From Vicinamibacteria bacterium (GTDB lineage: Bacteria > Acidobacteriota > Vicinamibacteria > Fen-336), in contig JAMQGV010000025.1 of NCBI GenBank assembly GCA_025994075.1, positions 1 through 64,000 on the forward strand: a DNA stretch of 64,000 bases. Direction: 5' to 3'. The position numbers and the translations under genes are program-made. Of the stretch, positions 6,406 through 17,589 are shown piece by piece (the stretch's first letter is position 1; every line of letters begins with the position of its first letter). The notes beneath the pieces were generated by a model, which was given only the letters and a program-made list of their open reading frames with translations, was not told the origin of the DNA and made no database searches.

Positions 6406-7907
6406 CGCCCGCCGTCGCGGCCGTCGAGCGCGGCCGCTGCGCCCTGCTTCAGGTCCTCGAGCAGCAGCGCCTGGGCGTCCTGATCCGTGACCGCGAGTCC
6501 CGAGGCGGCCGCGAAGAGATCGCGGTACCCGTTCGCGACCTTCGCCTGGAAGTCGGTCGTGCCGACCGTGTAGGTCGCGGCCGGGTCGAGCGGCACGAAG
6601 CCCGCCTCGCGCCGGGCGGGGTCGGCGAGCACCTCGACCTGGACGGGCCGCCCCTCGTGCAGCCGATACCGCAGCCCGGTCTGCTGGCTGAAGCCGTCGG
6701 AGCCGCGGCGGTCGATCGAGGCCTGCAGCAGGTTCAGCAACTGGGCCCCGGTGAACGTCGCGCGGACCAGGCGGTTCTTGTACGGGATCGCCCGCGCGAA
6801 CGACTCGGCGGTGACCTCCCCGGGCGGGATCGTCCCGCGAAAGCTCGACGCGGTGTTGAAGAAGACGTGGGCGCCGGTGGCGCGGCGCAGCACCTCCGTC
6901 GCCCAGTTGCCGATCACCGACTCGCCGGACTGCGCGCCGTCGTCGGTGAGGGCGACGGCCGCGCGGCCGACGACCGCGAAGCGCTCGGGCCGGTTCTGCT
7001 CGAGCTGCGCCTGCCAGCGCGCGACCTCGGCCGCCACGGCGGGGTCCTCGGGGAGTGCGGCGTCCATCTTCACGAGCCCGCCGCCGACGGTGGCCAGCCT
7101 CCGGCCCTCGAAGCGCAGCGTGAGCCGCGAGACGTAGGTGAGGTACTGGAAGGGCGAGACGTACCAGGTGCGGGTGCCCGGGATCACCTGCAGCTCGCCC
7201 TTGTGATGGGAGTGGGTGCCGAGCACGAGGTCGATGCCGCTGACCGCGCGGGCCAGCGCGAAGTCGTCCTCGCGGTGCTGGTGGCCGATCAGGATCACGG
7301 CGTCGACCTTCTCGTCGCGGCGCAGCCGGCCGACCAGTTCCCGCGCCGTGGCCACCGGATCGGCGAAGCGGGCGCCGGGCGGCAGCCACTCGGTCTTCAC
7401 CAGCCGCACGAAGTCCGGGCCCGCCACGGCGATCAGCCCCAGCCGCCGGCCCGCGACCTCCTTCACGAAGTAGGGCTTGCCGCCGTGGGTCAGCAGCGGG
7501 CGGCCGTCGGCGCCGTGCAGGTTGGCCGCGAGCACGGGGAAGGAGACCGACGCGCGGCAGGCGTCGAAAGCCTCGGCCCCGTAGTCGTACTCGTGGTTGC
7601 CGAGCGCCATCGCGTCGACCAGGCCGTCGAAGAACGCCCAGTCGCGGCAGCGGTACTCGTCGCTCCAGGCCGGGGTGCCGAGGTTCATCATGTCGCCGCC
7701 GGAGACGATCACAGCATTCGCCTCGCTCCGCGCCCGGCGCAGGTAGGCCACGGCGCGGGCCAGCCCCGCCTGGCCGGGCGCGCCCTCGGAGTAGAAGGGA
7801 ACCGCGTGCGAGTGATAGTCGGAGAACGCGACCAGCGTCACTTCGGCCGCCGCCGGCGGCGCGGGGGCAGCGCCCGAGAGCAGCAGCGCGAGGGCGAGGG
7901 CGTTCAC
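6402..7907 (-). CDS. Secreted 5'-nucleotidase/UshA-like metallophosphatase
   Basis: A 501-residue exported hydrolase that should release phosphate from nucleotides or related esters in the periplasm. After a signal peptide (residues 1-21) comes a calcineurin-like metallophosphatase domain with the metal motifs SDYHSH, GGDMMN, GNHEYDYG, GHQH and GTHSHH. The 5'-nucleotidase C-terminal domain follows (about 310-480), with the NTASSFRG and AIPYKNRL stretches that line the substrate pocket. The GTG start (7905-7907) overlaps the stop of the receiver-like gene (GTGA). Substrate range (5'-nucleotides, 2',3'-cyclic nucleotides, UDP-sugars) cannot be decided. Extracellular nucleotide breakdown would supply the nucleoside genes at 54-58 kb. 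Confidence 0.85.
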   Translation of the reverse strand: MNALALALLLSGAAPAPPAAAEVTLVAFSDYHSHAVPFYSEGAPGQAGLARAVAYLRRARSEANAVIVSGGDMMNLGTPAWSDEYRCRDWAFFDGLVDAMALGNHEYDYGAEAFDACRASVSFPVLAANLHGADGRPLLTHGGKPYFVKEVAGRRLGLIAVAGPDFVRLVKTEWLPPGARFADPVATARELVGRLRRDEKVDAVILIGHQHREDDFALARAVSGIDLVLGTHSHHKGELQVIPGTRTWYVSPFQYLTYVSRLTLRFEGRRLATVGGGLVKMDAALPEDPAVAAEVARWQAQLEQNRPERFAVVGRAAVALTDDGAQSGESVIGNWATEVLRRATGAHVFFNTASSFRGTIPPGEVTAESFARAIPYKNRLVRATFTGAQLLNLLQASIDRRGSDGFSQQTGLRYRLHEGRPVQVEVLADPARREAGFVPLDPAATYTVGTTDFQAKVANGYRDLFAAASGLAVTDQDAQALLLEDLKQGAAAALDGRDGGR

Positions 7908-8260
7908 GCCTGCGCCCCGGCCAGCAGTGCCGGCAGTTCGCGGACGAACGCGCTGCGGGCCATCACCCGGTCGACGCCCGCCGCGCGCGCCGCGCCGGCG
8001 CGCTCCGCGTCGACGTGGCTCAGGAACCCGACGACGCACACGGCGGCCAGCGCCGCGTCCGCCTTCAGCGCCCCGAGCTCCGCCAGCGCGTCGCTGCGCC
8101 GGTCGTCGAGGTCGGCGATCACGAGGCGCGCGCCAGCCGCGCGGCAGGTCTCGGCCAGGCGTCCGGGCGGCGCGGGACGCACCTCGACGCCCGCGCCGCG
8201 GGCCGCTTCGCCGATCCGGGTCCGGAACATCAGGTCCTGGCACGCGATGACGACGCTCAT
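7904..8260 (-). CDS. Receiver-like protein (response-regulator fold, possibly degenerate)
   Basis: A 118-residue single-domain protein starting at the ATG at 8258-8260. It has the alternating strand/helix layout of receiver domains: MSVVIACQDLMF, then VIADLDDRR around residue 50, then VCVVGFLSH, ending with VDRVMARSAF. The usual acidic pair near the first strand is reduced to a single D and the threonine after strand 4 is not obvious, so phosphorylation is doubtful. The Asp at IADLDD could be the acceptor. The stop overlaps the phosphatase start, so the two are coupled. Similar stand-alone domains without output act by protein contact; the partner here is unknown. Confidence 0.55.
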   Translation of the reverse strand: MSVVIACQDLMFRTRIGEAARGAGVEVRPAPPGRLAETCRAAGARLVIADLDDRRSDALAELGALKADAALAAVCVVGFLSHVDAERAGAARAAGVDRVMARSAFVRELPALLAGAQA

Positions 8261-8353
8261 CCGCTCAGTATCGCGCAAGCGCCGCAGTGACGGAGCAGCG
8301 GCGTGGCTCGGGCACAATGGGACTTCACCGATGGCTGTACTCGACCCGGCGGC

Positions 8354-11095
8354 ATGAGCGTGCGACTGCTGCCCTCCGACGTCCGACCCGAGGAGCGGCG
8401 CGGCGCTGCCGCGGCGTTCCTGACGCTGTTCGGCATCCTCGCGGCGCACACGCTGCTCGAGACCGCGCGCGACGCGCTGTTCCTGGCCCGCCTGCCTGCC
8501 TCGCAGTTGCCGTGGGTCTACCTGGCGATGGCCGCCGTGGCCGTGGGGCTGTCGCAGGTCCAGGGCCGGCTGCCGGGGTTGCGCGCGGGGCGCACGCTCT
8601 CCGCGCTGCTCGCCGGGTGCGCCGCGGTCACCTTCGGCTTCTGGCTGCTCGCGGCATGGCAGCAGACCTGGGTGCTGCGCGCGCTCTACGTGTGGACCGG
8701 CATCGTGGGCACGCTGGCGGCGCTCGAGTTCTGGCTGATCCTCGGCGAGTCGTACACCGTGACCCAGGCCAAGCGGCTTTACCGCCTGATCGCGCTCGGC
8801 AGCCTGCTGGGCGCCGTCAGCGGCGCCGCGCTGGCGCGGGTGGTGGCGGGCCGGGCCGAGGCGCCGCAGCTCGTGCTCGCCGCGGCGCTGGTGCTGCTCG
8901 CGACCGCGCTCGGGCCCGCGCTGCTGCTGCGCCGGCCCGAGTCCGCGCGCGGGCCGGGCAGCGGGGCGCCGCTGACCCACCCGGGCCGGGCCCTGCGGCT
9001 GCTGCGCCGCGAGCCCTACGTGCGCGGCCTGCTGGGGCTGACCCTGGTCTCGACGGTGACCCTCACCCTGGCCGACTACGTGTTCAAGAGCGCGGTCGCG
9101 CGGGCCGTGCCGGCGGCGGAGCTGCCGGAGTTCTTCGCGAGCTTCTACGTGCTGCTCAACGGCCTCGCGCTGGCCAGCCAGTTGCTGCTGCTGGCGCCGC
9201 TGATGCGGGTGATGGGCCTGCACCGCGCGCTGTGGGTGCTGCCCGCGCTGCTGGCGCTGGGCGCCACGGGCCTCGCCCTCGGCGGCGGGGTGATCGCCGC
9301 GCTGCTGCTCAAGGGCGCCGACGGCACGCTGCGCCACTCGCTGCACCGCACGACCAGCGAGCTGCTGGCGATGCCGCTGCCGGACGCGCTGCGGGGGCGG
9401 GTCAAGCCGCTGGTCGATGTCGTCGGGCAGCGCGGCGGACAGGCGCTGGCGTCGCTCGTGATCCTCTCGGAAGTGGTGCTCGGCCGCGGCGACGTGGCGC
9501 TGGCAGCCGCGACCGCCGCGCTCGCGCTGCTGTGGATCGCGCTGGCCGCCGACCTGCGCCAGCACTACCTCGAACTGTTCCGGGCGGCGCTGCGGGAGGG
9601 CGTGCTCGGCGAGCGGCCGGAGCTGTCGGAACTGGACGTGGCCGACCTCGAGGCACTGGTCGCCGCCTTCAACTCGAGCGACGACGCCGAGGTCGTCGGC
9701 GCGATGGACCTGCTCGCCGCCAGCGGACGGCTGCGCGTGATCCCGGCCCTGATCCTCTATCACCCGTCGCGAGCCGTCGTGCTCCGCGCTCTCGACCTGC
9801 TCGCCGACTCCGGGAGGAGCGACTTCGTGCCGATCGCGGACCGGCTGCTCGCCAGTCCCGACGCCGAGGTGCGGGCGGCGGCGCTGCGCGCCCGCAGCGC
9901 CGCGCGGCCGGAGGAGAAGCCGCTGCGCCGGGCGACCGCCGACCCTGACCCGCTCGTCCGCGCCACGGCGATCGTCGGCCTGGTGGCCGGTGGCTGGGTG
10001 TCGGACGAAGCACAACAGACGCTCGACGCGCTGCTGCGCGACGGCGGGCGGCCGGCGCGCCTCGCGCTGGCGCGGGCGCTGCGTCGGCGGCCGTCGCCCG
10101 CGTGCGAGCCGCTGCTGCTGACGCTGGCCGAGGGCGCCGACGCCCTTCTGCTCGCCGAGGTCGCGGGCGGGATGGCGGCCTGCCCGTCGCCGGTCTTCCT
10201 GGGGCCGCTGCTGCACCTGCTCACCCAGCACGAGGTGCGGCCCGCCGCACGCGCCGCGCTGGTCGCCCAGGGCGAAGCCGCTCTGCGCCACCTCGACCGG
10301 GCGCTCGGCGACCACGCGCTGCCGCACGAGATCCGCCGCCACCTGCCGCGCACGATCAGCCAGTTCGAGCCCGCCGCCGCGGCGCGGGTGCTGATGGCGC
10401 ACCTGCTCGACGAACCCGACGGCATGGTCCGCTTCAAGATCCTGCGCGGGCTGAACCGGCTGGCCGCCGACAATCCCGGGCTCGAACTCGACCGCGCGAC
10501 GCTGGCGACGGCCGCGCAACGCACCGCGGCCGCGGCGCTCAAGGCGCTCTCGTGGCGGGTCACCCTGCAGCGCGGCGCGGGCGAGGCGCCCGGGCGCGCG
10601 ACCCCGGGCCACGGGCTGCTGGTGGACCTGCTGCGCGACAAGGAGTCGCACGCGGTCGAGCGGCTGTTCCGCCTGCTCCAGCTCCAGGACCCGGGGGAGG
10701 ACTACCGCCGGATCTACCGCGGCCTGACGAGCGCGTCGATCAAGGTTCGCGCGGGCAGCCGCGAGCTGCTCGAGCACCTCGTCGAGCCGCCGCTGCGCGA
10801 GGCGCTGCTCGCGCTGGTCGACGACGCCCCCGAGGCCCAGCGCCTGTTCCATGCCGGGCCGCTGCTGGAGCCTGCGCCCGCGGGCTACGAAGAACTGCTG
10901 GCGGCGCTGCTCGCCGAGAGCTCCGAGACCGTGCGCTGCCTCGCCGCCTATCACGTGGGCGAACTGGGCCTCGGCGGCCTGCGCCCGCGGCTGGAAGAGG
11001 TGCGGGCCGAGGGGCGCAGCTTCTTCCTCGAGCGGGTGGTCGATCGGGCGCTGGCGCTGCTCGCGCGGCCGCGGCCTGCCGAGGAGGCGTCGTGA
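8354..11095 (+). CDS. ADP/ATP-translocase-like membrane protein with HEAT-like repeat domain
   Basis: A 913-residue protein. Residues 1 to about 425 hold around ten to twelve hydrophobic segments and the layout of TLC/NTT-type nucleotide carriers, for example FLTLFGILAAHTLLETARDA, WVYLAMAAVAVGLSQVQG and LILGESYTVTQAKRLY. This family includes the ATP/ADP exchangers of chlamydiae and plastids. From about residue 440 on, the protein becomes soluble and consists of repeated helical pairs with the look of HEAT repeats, such as HPSRAVVLRALDLLADSG, DAEVRAAALRARSA and DPLVRATAIVGLV. In free-living bacteria such fusions exist but their transport role is not established. It heads an operon: the next gene starts inside its stop codon (GTGA). 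Confidence 0.75.
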   Translation: MSVRLLPSDVRPEERRGAAAAFLTLFGILAAHTLLETARDALFLARLPASQLPWVYLAMAAVAVGLSQVQGRLPGLRAGRTLSALLAGCAAVTFGFWLLAAWQQTWVLRALYVWTGIVGTLAALEFWLILGESYTVTQAKRLYRLIALGSLLGAVSGAALARVVAGRAEAPQLVLAAALVLLATALGPALLLRRPESARGPGSGAPLTHPGRALRLLRREPYVRGLLGLTLVSTVTLTLADYVFKSAVARAVPAAELPEFFASFYVLLNGLALASQLLLLAPLMRVMGLHRALWVLPALLALGATGLALGGGVIAALLLKGADGTLRHSLHRTTSELLAMPLPDALRGRVKPLVDVVGQRGGQALASLVILSEVVLGRGDVALAAATAALALLWIALAADLRQHYLELFRAALREGVLGERPELSELDVADLEALVAAFNSSDDAEVVGAMDLLAASGRLRVIPALILYHPSRAVVLRALDLLADSGRSDFVPIADRLLASPDAEVRAAALRARSAARPEEKPLRRATADPDPLVRATAIVGLVAGGWVSDEAQQTLDALLRDGGRPARLALARALRRRPSPACEPLLLTLAEGADALLLAEVAGGMAACPSPVFLGPLLHLLTQHEVRPAARAALVAQGEAALRHLDRALGDHALPHEIRRHLPRTISQFEPAAAARVLMAHLLDEPDGMVRFKILRGLNRLAADNPGLELDRATLATAAQRTAAAALKALSWRVTLQRGAGEAPGRATPGHGLLVDLLRDKESHAVERLFRLLQLQDPGEDYRRIYRGLTSASIKVRAGSRELLEHLVEPPLREALLALVDDAPEAQRLFHAGPLLEPAPAGYEELLAALLAESSETVRCLAAYHVGELGLGGLRPRLEEVRAEGRSFFLERVVDRALALLARPRPAEEAS

Positions 11096-12096
11096 GCGCG
11101 CGTGGAGGACGCATCGGACACGGCGAGCGGCTGCTCGCGCTGCGGCGGGTGCCGCTGGTCTCCGGCTTCTCGCCCGCGGACCTGGCGTTGCTCGTCGAGC
11201 GGCTCGCCGAGCGCGAGCTCGAACCCGGCGAGCCGCTGCTGGCCGCGGGCGAGCCGGTCGGCGGGCTGCACTTCCTGGTCGAGGGCCGCGTCCGCGTCGA
11301 GCGCCGCGGCGGCGCCCTGGCCGAGGCGCTGCCGGGCGCGGTGGTCGGCGGGTTGGCGTTCCTGGCGCGCTGCCCCGAAGGCTTCGCCGCCTCGGCGCTG
11401 GAGCCGTCGCTGTGTCTCTCGCTCGACGCCGACGACGCGGCGGAGCTGTTCGAGGACCGCTTCCCGATGCTGCACGACCTGCTGCGCGCGACCTGCGAGC
11501 GGCTGATCGACGTCCAGCGCCACCTGCAGCAGTGCGGTCCGCCGGGTCGCGCCGCGGCGCTGCCCGCCGTGCGCGGCGAGCTGGACCTCGTCGAGCGGAT
11601 CCTGATCCTGCGCCACTCGCCGGCGTTCTCTCGCGCGAGCCTCAACGCGCTGGCCGAGCTGTCGCGCTCGCTGCACGAGCTGCGGCTCCCCGCCGGCGCG
11701 GAGCTGTGGGCGGAAGGAGCGCCGAGCGGGCCGCTGCTGATGGTCGTGGACGGCCAGGTCCGTTGCGCCTCCGCCGACGGCTACTGCTTCGACGCCGGCC
11801 CCGGGGCGCCGCTCGGCGCGCTGGAGTCGGTCGCCGAGCGGCCGCGCTGGTTCGGCGCCCGCGCCCTCACCCCGCTGGTGGCGCTGCAGGGGCACGCGGA
11901 GGCGCTGATCGACGTGCTCGAGGACAATCACGAAATGGCCCGCGACTACCTCGCCTTCGTCGCCGGCTGGCTGCTGCGCGCGATCGAGATCGTGGGGCCG
12001 GCCGCGTGGCCTGCCGACCTGCTGCTCGCGCCGCCGACAGGTTCGGCCCCGGCGGCGGTTGGTGCTAACCTCGACGAGCGCACCACGCGCGAGTGA
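11092..12096 (+). CDS. Cyclic-nucleotide-binding-fold protein
   Basis: A 334-residue soluble protein with two β-barrel segments of the CAP/cNMP-binding kind, at about residues 25-135 and 185-300. The first shows the pattern of the fold: FSPADLALLVERL, ELEPGEPLLAAGEP, GLHFLVEGRVRVE. The second repeats it more loosely: LHELRLPAGAELWAEGAPSG, LLMVVDGQVR. The phosphate-binding cassette (normally G-E-x-A near R) is not well kept, so cyclic-nucleotide binding is doubtful. No DNA-binding domain follows. It is coupled to the translocase-HEAT gene by GTGA overlap and probably regulates or assembles with that protein; this is inferred from position. Confidence 0.7.
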   Translation: MSARGGRIGHGERLLALRRVPLVSGFSPADLALLVERLAERELEPGEPLLAAGEPVGGLHFLVEGRVRVERRGGALAEALPGAVVGGLAFLARCPEGFAASALEPSLCLSLDADDAAELFEDRFPMLHDLLRATCERLIDVQRHLQQCGPPGRAAALPAVRGELDLVERILILRHSPAFSRASLNALAELSRSLHELRLPAGAELWAEGAPSGPLLMVVDGQVRCASADGYCFDAGPGAPLGALESVAERPRWFGARALTPLVALQGHAEALIDVLEDNHEMARDYLAFVAGWLLRAIEIVGPAAWPADLLLAPPTGSAPAAVGANLDERTTRE

Positions 12097-12109
12097 AGGA
12101 GGCGGAACG

Positions 12110-12442
12110 ATGTACGACGATCGCCACTCGGGGGCCTCTGGAGTGCTGCTGTTCCTCGTCGGCGGCCTGACGGGCGCGGTGCTGGCCACGCTGTTCGCGC
12201 CCCGCTCCGGGCGCGAGACGCGCGAGATGCTGGGAGAGCGGTTGCGCGAGGGCGCCGAGCGGGGCCGCGACCTGCGCGATCGCGCCGTGCGGCGCGGGCG
12301 CGAGCTGGTCGACGAGGCGTCGGAAGCGGTCGACCGCGGCCGCGAGTCGATCGAGAAGCGCAAGGACCGGCTGGCCGCTGCCGTCGAGGCGGGGCGGCAG
12401 GCGTACCACGAGAACAAGGACCGCGGCGAGGGCTCGGTCTAG
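12110..12442 (+). CDS. YtxH-domain membrane protein
   Basis: A 110-residue protein with a strong start: AAGGAGGCGGAACG lies just before the ATG at 12110. Residues 10-33 form one membrane segment (LLFLVGGLTGAVLATLFAP), directly followed by RSGRETREMLGERL, the signature of the YtxH family (a Gly-rich helix then S/R-G-x-E-T-R). The rest is a charged amphipathic helix. YtxH proteins sit in the inner membrane and have general-stress links in Firmicutes; their job is not known. It lies 13 bases after the cNMP-fold gene and belongs to the same operon. Confidence 0.75.
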   Translation: MYDDRHSGASGVLLFLVGGLTGAVLATLFAPRSGRETREMLGERLREGAERGRDLRDRAVRRGRELVDEASEAVDRGRESIEKRKDRLAAAVEAGRQAYHENKDRGEGSV

Positions 12443-12466
12443 GCACGACGGAAAGGGGAGGGCACG

Positions 12467-12916
12467 GTGGGCGACTGGGCGACCGCATTCCTCGGCGTGA
12501 TCGCGCTGGCCTCGGTGGTCCAGGCGGCATTCCTGATCGCGCTCGCGTTCTGGGGCCGCGGCTTGTCGCAGCGGATCGACCAGTTGCAGCAGCGGATCGA
12601 CCGCGAGCTGTCGCCTGCGCTGGCCAGCTTCGCCCGCGTGTCCCGCAACCTGGAGGAGGTCTCGGACCTGGCCGTGATCCAGGCGCGGCGGGTCGACGAC
12701 CTGCTGGCCGACACGCTCGAGAAGGTGCAGGACACGACCACCCAGATCCAGCGCCTCGTGCTGCGCCCGCTGGGGCCACTGGCCGATCTCGTGGCGTTCC
12801 TGCGCGGGATCCGCAAGGGAGTCGAGGTGTACCGCCAGTTCGGCTCGCTGGGCGACGACTCGCGTCGCGCGCGTGCCCGTCGCGCCGACGCCGAGGACGA
12901 TCACCTCTTCATCTAG
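12467..12916 (+). CDS. DUF948-like single-pass membrane protein with coiled coil
   Basis: A 149-residue protein starting at GTG 12467 after the ribosome binding site AAAGGGGAGG. Residues 8-30 form a membrane helix. A long heptad-like region follows (LSQRIDQLQQRIDRELSPAL, then SRNLEEVSDLAVIQARRVDDLLADTL), and the end is acidic. This matches the DUF948 layout (membrane anchor plus helical bundle), which is often encoded beside YtxH proteins as here. It ends the translocase operon and faces the convergent gene at 12939. Confidence 0.6.
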   Translation: MGDWATAFLGVIALASVVQAAFLIALAFWGRGLSQRIDQLQQRIDRELSPALASFARVSRNLEEVSDLAVIQARRVDDLLADTLEKVQDTTTQIQRLVLRPLGPLADLVAFLRGIRKGVEVYRQFGSLGDDSRRARARRADAEDDHLFI

Positions 12917-12938
12917 GGCAAGCCTTCCGGTCCGGGCG

Positions 12939-13421
12939 TCAGCGTCGGCGGGCGTCCTCGATGCGGCGGGCGATCGAGCGCTCCAGCGCCGCCCGCTGAG
13001 GAGGCTCGAGCGCGAGCACGTCGACCATGACCGAGCCCCCGTCGCGCGTGCTCAGGCGGACGCCCTCGGGCCCGTTGACGGCCTCCACGACGTCGGTCCA
13101 GGCCACGACGCGGGAGCCGGTCAGGCGGCGCTCGCGGAGCGCCGTGCCGTCGGCGGCGATCAGCCAGGCGGCGGAGGCAGCCGCGTGCAGCGCGCAGCCG
13201 GCCGCGACCGCCGCCAGCAGCCCGCGCCAGCGCCGCCCGCCGGCGAGCGCGGCGGCCGCACCCAGCGCCAGCGCCGCCACGAGCGCGCCGCCCGTGCGCA
13301 CTGCGGGGTAGACGAGCCGCAGGCCGTCGGCCTCGACGGTCAGCGCGGGTGGGGCGGCCGTGGCGGCCAGGACCGTGGCAGCGCACAGCAGCAGGCCGCC
13401 GACGGCGAGCGCGCGGGACAT
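12939..13421 (-). CDS. Small membrane protein with PH-like tail
   Basis: A 160-residue protein with three hydrophobic helices in the N-terminal 85 residues. The soluble C-terminal part reads like a bacterial PH-type fold: TALRERRLTGSRVVAWTDVVEA, then VRLSTRDGGSVMVDVLAL, then a last helix. The pattern of a short membrane anchor followed by a W-x-D-V strand is common in bPH/YcxB-like proteins of unknown function. The ATG at 13421 begins a plausible signal or anchor sequence. It is transcribed divergently from the cysteine-dioxygenase-like gene and convergently with the DUF948-like gene. Confidence 0.55.
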   Translation of the reverse strand: MSRALAVGGLLLCAATVLAATAAPPALTVEADGLRLVYPAVRTGGALVAALALGAAAALAGGRRWRGLLAAVAAGCALHAAASAAWLIAADGTALRERRLTGSRVVAWTDVVEAVNGPEGVRLSTRDGGSVMVDVLALEPPQRAALERSIARRIEDARRR

Positions 13422-13480
13422 CCGCGGATTCTAAGCGCCATCCTTGACACCCCGCGGGCGCGCGCGGGACACTCGCCTTC

Positions 13481-14146
13481 GTGCCCCCGAAAGTCGTCTC
13501 CGTCGGTGACGTCGTCGAGACGTTGCGCGGGTTCGAGTCGGAACCGTTCACCCGCGACCGCATCCTCGACTTCCTGTCGGGCGTCGAGGTCGAGCGCGCG
13601 AGCCTCGAGCCCTACGCCCACTTCAGCCCCGACCGCTACACCCGCAACCTGGTCCACGCCGACGACGTGTTCGAGCTGATGGTCCTGTGCTGGCAGCCGG
13701 GGCAGCGCACGCCGATCCACTCCCACAACGGCCAGCTCGGGTGGATGGTGACGGTGCGCGGCGCGCTGGCGGTCGTCGAGTACAAGTACGTCGGCTGCAA
13801 CGCGCCGCAGAACCAGCAGGTCTCCGGCCTCGACTGCCTCGCCGGCGCGACCGAGATCCACCTCGACCGCGGGCCGGTGCACGAGTGCGCTCCCGGCGGG
13901 CCGGTCGCGACCGTGGACAAGACCCACACCATCCACCAGGTCGTGGTCCAGGGCCGCGAGCCGGCGGTCTCGCTGCACCTCTACAGCCGGCCGATCGAGT
14001 CGTGCGTCGCGTACGACCTCAAGCAACGGCGCTGCTGGCGCCGCCAGCTCTCGTTCCACAGCCGCTACGGCCAGGTCGTGGCGGAGGTCGAGACCCCGCC
14101 TGCCGCTTCCGTTCCGGGACGGCGCGAGCTGCCGGTCATCCGCTGA
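13481..14146 (+). CDS. Cysteine dioxygenase-family protein
   Basis: A 221-residue cupin that probably oxidises cysteine (or a related thiol) to its sulfinate with iron. The metal ligands appear as HSH in TPIHSHNGQLGWM (near residue 75) and a third His in the stretch HTIHQVV (near residue 148). The Asn-Gly-x-x-G context between the strands resembles CDO_I proteins. The usual cupin Glu is absent, as in true cysteine dioxygenases. The start is GTG at 13481. A TTGACA at 13444-13449 with a weak GACACT at 13468-13473 may be its promoter, which would leave almost no leader. The substrate could also be 3-mercaptopropionate. Confidence 0.75.
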   Translation: MPPKVVSVGDVVETLRGFESEPFTRDRILDFLSGVEVERASLEPYAHFSPDRYTRNLVHADDVFELMVLCWQPGQRTPIHSHNGQLGWMVTVRGALAVVEYKYVGCNAPQNQQVSGLDCLAGATEIHLDRGPVHECAPGGPVATVDKTHTIHQVVVQGREPAVSLHLYSRPIESCVAYDLKQRRCWRRQLSFHSRYGQVVAEVETPPAASVPGRRELPVIR

Positions 14147-14166: not shown

Positions 14167-17100
14167 ATGGCGCGCGTCCTCGTCGTCGACGACGACCCGG
14201 AAATCCTCACGTTCCTCGAGCGGCTGCTCGGCCAGCACGGACTCGCGTGCACGAGCGCCGGCAGCGGCGAGGCTGCCCTGGAGCGGCTCGAGGCCGAGCC
14301 CGTCGACCTGGTGCTGCTCGACGTGCGGCTGCCGGGCATCGACGGCATCGAGGTGTGCCGGCGCATCCGCGCGCGCCTCGGGCCGGCGTTGCCGGTGCTG
14401 CTGCTCACCGCGGCGGCCGACGCCGACGCGTTGCAGCGCGGCTACGAGGCCGGTGCCGACGACTTCCTCGCCAAGCCGCCCGACCCGCGCGGCCTGGTCC
14501 TGAAGCTGCGCGCCCTGCTGCGGCTGCGCGCGCTGTTCGAGCGCAGCGAGCGCGCCAGCCGCGAAGCCGAGGCACGCGCTCGAGCACTCGCCCGGCTGCA
14601 CGAGATCGGCCGCGACTGGTCGCTGATGGCGCGGCCCGAGGAGTTCGTCGGCATGGTGTGCGAGCGGCTGGCGAGGCTGATCGGCGCCCCGGTCTGCCTG
14701 CTGGCGCTCTACGACCCGGCGAGCCGCTCGCTGGCCGGCGCCGTTCCCGCCTTCGGCCTCGCTCCGGACGTCGTGCGACGGATGCGGCTGGAGCTGCGTC
14801 CCGAGCACCGCGGCCTGTGGAACCTGCGCGCGGGCCGGCCCTACGTCACGGCGGACGCCCGGCGCGACCCGCGCCTGGCACCCGAACTGGCCGAGATCGC
14901 CGGCGTCGAGCAGGCGCTGCTGGTGCCGATGCTCGCCGAGGGCCGGGTGCTCGGCGTGATCGCCGCCTGCAACAAGGCGGGCGGCTTCGACGAGGACGAC
15001 GCCCAGGTGGTGTCGATCTTCGCCGGTCCGGCGGCGACCTTCCTGCGCAGCCGCCAGATCTACGAGCAGCAGCGGCGGCACGCGGCGCGCCAGGAGCAGA
15101 CCGCGCGCCTGATGGCGTCGATGGCCGCCACCCACGGGCGCGGCGCCCTGGTGGAGACCGCCGTCGGGGGCCTGCGCCGCGGCCACGGCTACGCGCGCGT
15201 GGCCTTCCACGCCGTGCAGGGCGCGGGCCTCGGGCCCGAGCTGGAGGCCGGCGCCGGCGGCGGCGACACCGCCTGGCTGGGCTGGGCGCTCCAGGGCCGG
15301 CGCCCGCTGGCCGCGCCCGGCCGCCATGCCGTGGCCGTGCCGGTGCGGGCCGGCGCCCGCGCCCTCGGCGTGCTCGAGGTCGAGAAGGAGCACGCGTTCG
15401 AGGAACTCGAGATCGAACTGCTGGGCGGCCTCGCCGACCAGCTCGCCGTGGGCCTCGAGAAGGCGGCGGGCCTGGCCGAGGCCGAGCGGCTGGCCCGGCA
15501 GATGGCGACGCTCTACGAGCTCGGGCTGGAGACGGCGGCGTTGCGCGACCTGCGGGCCCTCTTCGAGCGCGCGACGGAGGAGGCCGGGCGACTGATCGGG
15601 GCCGACCACGCCTCGGTGTTCCGCCTCGACGCCGCTGCCGGCGAGCTGCGGCTGTTCGCGGGCTGGGCCCGCGACCGCACGGTGGAACCCTACGGAGACC
15701 CGCGCTTCTCGCTCGGCGAGGGCGTGCTCGGCCGCGTCGCCCGCGACGGGGTGCCGGCGCTGGTCAACGACGCGGCGCGCGAGCCCGGCTTCGTCGAGCG
15801 CGGCAACCCCGTGTCGAGGCTGCTCTGCGTGCCGCTCACCTATTTCGAGCCGGAGGCCGGCCGCAGCGCGACGTTCGGCGTGCTCAACGCGACCCGGCGC
15901 CCGGGCGCGCCGCCGTTCACGCCCGAGGACTTCGATGGCCTGATGCGCTTCGCCGGCCAGCTCCAGGTCGCCGCGGCCAACGCCTCGGCGTTCGCGGCCG
16001 AGCGCCGCCGCTCCGAGCAACTCGGCCTCGTCAATCGCGTGCTGCGCGAGATCGCGACCAGCCTGTCGCCCGAGCGTGTGCTGGAGGTCGCGGTGCGCCG
16101 CATCCAGGAGGCGTTCCGCTTCCCGGTGGTGCTGGCCGTCGTGCCCGACCCGGCCGCGGGCGTGAACCGCGTGGCCTGCGCGGCGTGCGACCCGCCCCGC
16201 CGCGGGAGCTTCCCGCACTTCCCGCTCGACGCGGGCCTCACCGCGAGGGTGCTGCACGGGCGGCGCACCGTGCACGCGGCGGACGTCAGCCGGGAGCCCG
16301 GGTACCTCGAGATGGTGCCGGGGATGCGCAGCGAGCTGCTGGTCCCGGTGCTCTCCGGCGACGACGTGGTGGCGGTGCTCGACCTCGAGAGCGACCGGCC
16401 CGACGCCTTCGACCACGGCGTCGTCCTGATGATGGAGACGCTGGCCGACGGCATCGGCATCACGCTGCGAAACGCCGAGCTGTTCCGCGCGCTGGAGGCC
16501 TCGCACGAGCGGCTGATCGAGCTGGACCGCACCAAGAGCGAGGTGGTCAACATCGTCGCCCACGACATCCGCTCGCCGCTGTTCGGCGTGATGGGCCGTG
16601 CCGACCTGCTGCTGGCCGAGCCCGCGGCGGCGGAGCACGCCGGCGCGATCGCCGCGGCCGCGCGCCACATGGCGGCGCTCGTCGACAAGACGCTGGCGAC
16701 GACGCGGCTGGAGAGCGGCCACTTCCCGTTCGAGTTCGGGGTGCTCGACCTCGGCGCGCTGCTGCACGCCGCGGCCGAGCGCTGGCGGTCCGATCCCGCG
16801 CGGCCGCTGGCGCTCGAGCTGCCCGAGGAGCCGCTGCCGGTGTGGGGCGATCGCGAGCGGCTCGCCGAGGTCGCCGACAACCTGCTCTCCAACGCGGTCA
16901 AGTACTCGCCGCGCGGCGGCGCCATCACCCTTCGCGCCACGCGCGCGGACGGCCGCGTCGCCGTCGAGGTCGCGGACCGCGGCGTGGGCATCCCCGCCGC
17001 CGAGCGTCCGCGCCTGCTGCGCCCCTTCTCGCGGCTGCGCCGGCCCGAGACGGCCGGCATCGAGGGCTCGGGCCTCGGCCTCTACATCTGCGACCGCATC

Positions 17101-17589
17101 CTGCGCGCCCACGGGGCCCGGCTCGAGATCGACGGCCGCGACGGCGGCGGGACCCGCGTGCGCTTCTCGCTGCCGCTGTTCACCGGGGTCTCCGCGCGCC
17201 GGCCCGTGCTTCTGGTGGCGGCCGCGGACGCCGCCACGCTGCGCGAGGTCCGCGCGATCGCCCAGGCCCGCGGCTACGAGGTCCACGAGGCCGGCGACGG
17301 GGTGGAGGCACTCGAGGCCGTGCGCCGGCTGCTGCCGGACGTCGCGCTGCTCGACCACCTGCTGCCGCGCCTGCGCGGCGAGGAGGTCGCCGAGCGGCTC
17401 GCCGAGCAGGAGTCCACGCGGGCCGTGCCGCTGCTCGCGCTCTCGGAGCCGGCTCCGCTCGGCGCCCGCGCGCGGCTGTTCCGGGCGTGCGTCGCGCGGC
17501 CCGTCGAGCGCGATGCGCTGATCCAGGCACTGGAGGCGGCTCGCGCCGAGACCGCGACGCTGGCCGCCGGCGAGGTGGAGGCGAGGTGA
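14167..17589 (+). CDS. Hybrid sensor histidine kinase with multiple GAF domains and two receiver domains
   Basis: A 1140-residue cytoplasmic signalling protein with no clear membrane segment. Order: receiver domain (about 1-118, acceptor in LVLLDVRLPG); first GAF-like domain (about 150-300); a weaker GAF-like stretch (about 310-440); GAF (about 450-615); GAF (about 620-775); kinase dimerisation domain with phospho-His799 in AHDIRSPL; ATPase domain (about 890-1005) with NAVKYSPRGG, DRGVGIP and GSGLGLYI. A second receiver fold ends the protein (about 1010-1130), with Asp in ALLDHLLP but no acidic pair at its start. GAF domains usually bind small ligands or sense light or redox; the ligands are unknown. 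It is followed by a GTGA overlap with the MoeB-like gene. Confidence 0.85.
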   Translation: MARVLVVDDDPEILTFLERLLGQHGLACTSAGSGEAALERLEAEPVDLVLLDVRLPGIDGIEVCRRIRARLGPALPVLLLTAAADADALQRGYEAGADDFLAKPPDPRGLVLKLRALLRLRALFERSERASREAEARARALARLHEIGRDWSLMARPEEFVGMVCERLARLIGAPVCLLALYDPASRSLAGAVPAFGLAPDVVRRMRLELRPEHRGLWNLRAGRPYVTADARRDPRLAPELAEIAGVEQALLVPMLAEGRVLGVIAACNKAGGFDEDDAQVVSIFAGPAATFLRSRQIYEQQRRHAARQEQTARLMASMAATHGRGALVETAVGGLRRGHGYARVAFHAVQGAGLGPELEAGAGGGDTAWLGWALQGRRPLAAPGRHAVAVPVRAGARALGVLEVEKEHAFEELEIELLGGLADQLAVGLEKAAGLAEAERLARQMATLYELGLETAALRDLRALFERATEEAGRLIGADHASVFRLDAAAGELRLFAGWARDRTVEPYGDPRFSLGEGVLGRVARDGVPALVNDAAREPGFVERGNPVSRLLCVPLTYFEPEAGRSATFGVLNATRRPGAPPFTPEDFDGLMRFAGQLQVAAANASAFAAERRRSEQLGLVNRVLREIATSLSPERVLEVAVRRIQEAFRFPVVLAVVPDPAAGVNRVACAACDPPRRGSFPHFPLDAGLTARVLHGRRTVHAADVSREPGYLEMVPGMRSELLVPVLSGDDVVAVLDLESDRPDAFDHGVVLMMETLADGIGITLRNAELFRALEASHERLIELDRTKSEVVNIVAHDIRSPLFGVMGRADLLLAEPAAAEHAGAIAAAARHMAALVDKTLATTRLESGHFPFEFGVLDLGALLHAAAERWRSDPARPLALELPEEPLPVWGDRERLAEVADNLLSNAVKYSPRGGAITLRATRADGRVAVEVADRGVGIPAAERPRLLRPFSRLRRPETAGIEGSGLGLYICDRILRAHGARLEIDGRDGGGTRVRFSLPLFTGVSARRPVLLVAAADAATLREVRAIAQARGYEVHEAGDGVEALEAVRRLLPDVALLDHLLPRLRGEEVAERLAEQESTRAVPLLALSEPAPLGARARLFRACVARPVERDALIQALEAARAETATLAAGEVEAR

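Follow-up and report, generated by a model that had tools for sequence, protein, structure and literature searches.

A carrier of the NTT-HEAT kind and its tandem cNMP-barrel partner in a Vicinamibacteria-type acidobacterium

Introduction

What does an ADP/ATP-carrier-like protein with a large HEAT domain do in a bacterium that looks free-living, and do the genes behind it belong with it? The question is raised by four genes in a 64,000-nucleotide stretch of DNA (the window) from a Vicinamibacteria-type acidobacterium, a host whose carrier has its nearest public relatives in an Acidobacteria MAG (99% identity over the carrier) and a Vicinamibacteria MAG (87%). An earlier note on this DNA had treated the four genes as one set that matches no system known by name. 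The core of the set, a carrier gene and a barrel gene, is a member of a kind that was published in 2017. Major, Embley and Williams (PMC5381601) described NTT-HEAT fusions across bacteria, some with a cNBD gene directly behind, as well as chains that combine NTT, HEAT and cNBD parts, the cNBD being duplicated in those of oomycetes and Bacilli. They proposed cAMP-tuned ATP uptake for the NTT-HEAT-cNBD proteins while stating that the functions are not known. A later review (PMC6995639) repeats this account, and no functional study of NTT-HEAT-cNBD proteins was found in the literature searched. The present analysis adds the strict pairing of carrier and barrel genes in the window's family, their separation from the YtxH and DUF948-like genes, and residue losses in both partners.

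Results

Four genes on one strand

Four plus-strand genes were called with a gene caller retrained on known genes and were confirmed with Pfam. The first (8354-11095) encodes a 913-residue protein in which an NTT-type carrier (residues 1 to about 415; 8354-9598) is fused to a HEAT α-solenoid (about residues 426-906). It overlaps by exactly four bases (GTGA) with the second gene (11092-12096), which encodes a 334-residue protein with two cNMP barrels in tandem. A 110-residue YtxH-domain membrane protein (12110-12442; PF12732, E 2.2e-15) and a 149-residue DUF948-related membrane protein (12467-12916) are encoded downstream. The last protein has no DUF948 match of its own; the label 'DUF948-like' given to it earlier is a fair one, as the PF06103 model recognises 11 of the 17 homologs aligned with it (best 1e-6). 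The spacers measure 13 bases between the barrel and YtxH genes and 24 bases between the YtxH and DUF948-like genes, and an AAGGAGG sequence of the ribosome-binding type, which begins at the barrel-gene stop, lies directly 5´ of the YtxH gene. Neither promoters nor terminators were detected when 8200-13500 was scanned, a result of little weight at such a G+C content. An untrained codon model favours antisense frames across the high-G+C region 2975-24930. The long antisense ORFs, such as 7904-10954 (minus strand, 1016 residues), lie opposite the real genes and are no evidence of genes. The reading frames of the four genes are kept in orthologs at 42–99% identity, which shows that they are not chance ORFs.

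The flanks of the locus vary among relatives. In five family genomes (L060:3953-4396, L061:8152-8625, L064:7402-7845, L065:5349-5792 and L067:5937-6386), a divergent gene directly upstream of the carrier gene encodes a protein of about 150 residues (MAE.L.LARL...), probably a membrane protein; the one copy tested has no Pfam match, and the gene is absent at that place in the window. In G001, the carrier start lies within the end of a rubrerythrin-like gene (L058:11353-11775; PF02915, 1.2e-6) that is missing in the window. Further downstream in the window are encoded a cupin protein of the cysteine-dioxygenase type (13481-14146; PF05995, 1.6e-17) and, after it, a response-regulator protein of very large size that probably includes GAF and histidine kinase parts (14167-17589).

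The N-terminal part of the carrier has the NTT fold

On its own, the carrier scores 22.6 bits with the Pfam family TLC, against a cut-off of 21, and matches HEAT_2 with an E-value of 1.6e-8. A profile (A3) was built from the N-terminal parts of 20 homologs and run against the whole PDB. At E-values of up to 0.01 it retrieved only two proteins, Chlamydia pneumoniae NTT1 (9j3n, 1.5e-31) and AtNTT1 (9j3j, 5.5e-29). The AlphaFold2 model (mean pLDDT 83.8, pTM 0.61) shows long helices until about residue 414, followed by a long solenoid of short helices; the long helices are consistent with a membrane bundle. In the Foldseek search, ranks 1 to 4 were taken by NTT structures (9j3n, 9j3l, 9j3m and 9j3j; TM-scores of 0.55-0.72 by target length), with other MFS carriers ranked below them. 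Together, the profile and fold matches uphold the NTT assignment and rule out that the N-terminal part belongs to an unrelated transporter family, the outcome that the earlier note had named as fatal to its reading. The HEAT fusion reported there is likewise borne out by the Pfam match and the modelled solenoid.

In a class-level tree, the window clade receives full support (100/100), and its link to other NTT-HEAT clades is weakly supported. Among 199 genomes sampled across the phylum, full-length carrier matches came solely from the window's own family; five other matches were partial or of the fused type. The window's own genome holds three further NTT-family genes: a fused NTT-HEAT-cNBD form of 1086 residues, a 692-residue form and a stand-alone 455-residue form (C33:31338-33881, C8:167921-169102 and C29:51634-52908; L037, L038 and L039).

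Class relatives also carry paired NTT-HEAT family genes in opposite orientation (L072:5698-12283, L048:6475-13000, L076:7616-14133, L074:8739-15311 and L073:6132-13582). In most of these, an NTT-HEAT gene and a fused NTT-HEAT-cNBD gene are arranged head to head at a distance of 43-109 bases, and two fused genes stand tail to tail in L073. Such pairs possibly encode heterodimers. In G005, the carrier gene (L067:6455-9138; G005:C119:44454-47113) is read as two overlapping frames. The break, which falls where the carrier part meets the HEAT part (residues 414 to 426), is a frameshift, an assembly error or a real split.

The tandem-barrel gene always accompanies the carrier gene

Twelve orthologous loci with at least 42% identity were read (G000, G001, G002, G004, G005, G007, G008, G010, G011, G012, G013 and G042); they represent the window's family and one genome outside it, and several of the genomes are fragmented. 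Both genes lie on one contig at all 12 loci, and the tandem-barrel gene adjoins the carrier gene at every one. The junction, in the ten loci where it was measured, is either an overlap of 4-11 bases or a gap of 10-19 bases. The two genes also occur together: of 14 family genomes, exactly the 11 with the carrier have the barrel gene, each as a single copy, and the three without the carrier lack it. Two of these three are incomplete and one (G006) is 98% complete. In relatives, one chain holds the NTT, HEAT and cNBD domains, as PMC5381601 also describes. Some distant NTT-HEAT relatives (L043) have no barrel gene next to them, so the barrel is not required by all members of the kind.

Two residues essential in AtNTT1 are lost from the carrier

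The residues needed for ATP/ADP transport were taken from mutagenesis papers on AtNTT1 alone, in which K155 is important for ADP binding, E245 for translocation and K527 for ATP binding, with E385 important as well. With a constant offset of 84 in the chain numbering, position 245 of the alignment is E, position 385 is E and position 527 is K. In the sequence alignment, K155, E245, E385 and K527 correspond to R39, G116, D241 and Q363 of the window carrier, the first of these through the C. pneumoniae sequence by a weak local match (12 bits). A charge persists at two of the four positions (basic R39, acidic D241), and the other two are lost (E245 to Gly116, K527 to Gln363). The set of four charged residues used by AtNTT1 is incomplete in the window carrier. 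The losses are kept in the window clade, which has Q363 in 10 of 10 sequences and conserves E36/R39/D40 and the D241..K245 motif. Lys occupies the K527 position in 11 of 29 aligned, distant NTT-HEAT relatives, which marks its loss as a feature of the lineage.

The loss of two essential transport positions could be read as a loss of transport itself. The NTT part would then be an anchor or ligand sensor of a membrane receptor or scaffold, with the HEAT arm and the barrel protein relaying a signal. A scaffold is expected to conserve its HEAT part about as well as its carrier part, as is seen here (mean column identity 0.48 versus 0.50). However, R141, Q276, E336, K351, D355 and R360 are invariant across the 29 aligned NTT-HEAT proteins, and E336, K351, D355 and the AKR motif, which are shared with true NTTs and invariant or nearly so over these sequences, would be needless in an inert anchor. 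The invariant charged and polar residues appear to fit a working carrier for a charged substrate better, and we regard a non-transporting receptor as unlikely.

The same residues bear on a working ATP/ADP or other nucleotide translocator, with cyclic-nucleotide binding at the barrels tuning its rate, as suggested in print for NTT-HEAT-cNBD proteins (PMC5381601). The clear NTT family and fold and the charge kept at R39 and D241 speak for such a translocator. Against it, the positions of E245 and K527 are a Gly and a Gln; in AtNTT1, changes of K527 block or cripple ATP binding, and even K155R abolishes ADP binding. The organism also looks free-living, and a host that could serve as a source of ATP is not apparent. 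Family membership by descent holds, whereas the function of an 'ATP/ADP exchanger' becomes less credible; the loss of two essential residues makes such exchange unlikely and strengthens the doubt about ATP theft that the earlier note had voiced.

The barrel protein lacks residues of the usual cyclic-nucleotide cassette

The barrel protein matches cNMP_binding (PF00027, E 2.1e-20) in two stretches, and its model contains two barrels joined by helices, in agreement with the GTGA-coupled, two-barrel protein described before. By fold and by sequence, it is matched best by the regulatory parts of PKA and PKG with their tandem CNB domains. The best fold match of all is a cAMP-independent PKA-R from a trypanosome; identities to such regulatory subunits are only 11–17%, and whole-chain TM-scores are low. 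The Glu of the phosphate-binding cassette (FGE...R) is missing in 33 of 33 barrels, comprising 22 barrels from 11 partners and, from distant relatives, 11 fused barrels. Barrel 1 has also lost the cassette Arg, which barrel 2 retains in 10 of the 11 partners; the window protein conforms, with Glu lost in both barrels and Arg lost in the first and present in the second. These losses make ordinary cAMP sensing unlikely, and a conventional cAMP receptor was rejected on this basis. They also weigh against the cyclic-nucleotide-tuned translocator, which taken together with the carrier residues we consider decidedly improbable. Trypanosomatid PKA-R is an example of a switch of CNB domains to nucleosides as ligands (PMC10959531, PMC6440977), which may serve as a lead for the barrel protein.

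The YtxH and DUF948-like genes form a separate module

The gene order is conserved in part. The carrier/barrel order is constant, whereas YtxH and DUF948-like genes follow the pair at only four of the 12 loci: three from one genus (G000, G001, G002) and G007. The two genes are adjacent to each other in 37 of 42 class genomes that have a DUF948-like gene, and only at those four loci does the pair lie behind the carrier. At seven of the eight orthologous loci without them downstream, the YtxH/DUF948-like pair is found on other contigs. Two family genomes (G003, G006) have the pair, and the carrier was not found in them. The four genes reported as one set are therefore two independent modules, carrier/barrel and YtxH/DUF948-like. 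The latter was placed downstream of the carrier pair, possibly once, because among carriers from other genera that of G007 is the closest to the window genus. A literature search for YtxH together with DUF948 found no papers. In G005, G011 and G012, a stand-alone second NTT of 416-430 residues takes the place of YtxH after the carrier/barrel pair (L060:8431-9708, L067:10299-11549 and L062:163-1455).

A single four-gene envelope system, in which the YtxH and DUF948-like proteins act with the carrier, could draw on the tight spacing, the good ribosome-binding sequences in the window and the identical order in two genera, but its absence from most orthologous loci and the occurrence of the YtxH/DUF948-like pair on its own make it very improbable, and as a general rule it is largely refuted.

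Discussion

On balance, the pair at 8354-12096 is best explained as a whole by a regulated carrier for a charged substrate other than ATP or ADP. The pair itself has the NTT fold, a HEAT fusion, a conserved adjacency and co-occurrence of its genes, and residue losses in the alignments of both partners. The functional unit would be these two genes. The carrier is predicted to place an NTT (MFS-like) fold in the inner membrane and its C-terminal HEAT solenoid in the cytosol, and the soluble tandem cNMP-barrel protein is probably produced by coupled translation. The barrel protein would most likely dock on the solenoid and control the carrier; the fused barrel of NTT-HEAT-cNBD relatives may act on its carrier likewise. 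Conserved adjacency is linkage, which does not prove docking, and a HEAT solenoid could bind proteins without any regulatory role. The membrane platform with soluble regulatory arms that the earlier note had proposed is a further possibility. The substrate is probably a charged metabolite rather than ATP or ADP, because the carrier part has lost two of the four residues needed by AtNTT1 but keeps other charged residues without variation. Sensing of cAMP or cGMP through the usual cassette is improbable for the barrel protein. The YtxH and DUF948-like proteins would make up a module of their own, acting in the membrane or in stress, which has ended up behind the pair in two genera.

Comparison with known systems places the pair further. 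It shares with the proteins of Major et al. the NTT part with a C-terminal HEAT domain, a cNBD gene directly downstream in the same orientation and free-living hosts; it differs in the two barrels of its separate partner, a duplication that their paper reports for fused proteins, and in the loss of key carrier and cassette residues. With AtNTT1 and C. pneumoniae NTT1 (9j3j, 9j3l, 9j3m, 9j3n, 9j3o), the carrier shares the family, the fold, the acidic E385 position and the basic K155 position. Unlike them, it has Gly and Gln at the positions of E245 and K527, is only 18–19% identical, carries a fused HEAT domain and belongs to a free-living-looking host. The barrel protein resembles PKA-R, PKG and the cAMP-independent trypanosomatid PKA-R, which binds nucleosides (PMC10959531), in its two tandem cNMP barrels, and differs from these regulatory subunits in having no known kinase partner and in the loss of Glu from both barrels. 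The two small membrane proteins have the domains and the mutual adjacency of other YtxH/DUF948 proteins; their location behind the carrier pair is limited to two genera.

A more specific form of the regulated carrier is a tentative possibility. Carrier and barrel partner may have switched ligand jointly, so that a non-adenylate charged metabolite is moved, in or out, and the tandem barrels gate this movement. The gating ligand would then be a nucleoside or another metabolite and not a cyclic nucleotide. If this were true, the pair would be a bacterial transporter under the control of a repurposed cNMP fold.

Among free-living bacteria, NTT-HEAT-cNBD proteins are widespread, and they are found also in Chlamydiae and oomycetes. 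In the window lineage, the partner is a separate soluble protein, which means that each of the two can be expressed without the other. The residue losses speak against the published cAMP-tuned ATP uptake, at least in this lineage.
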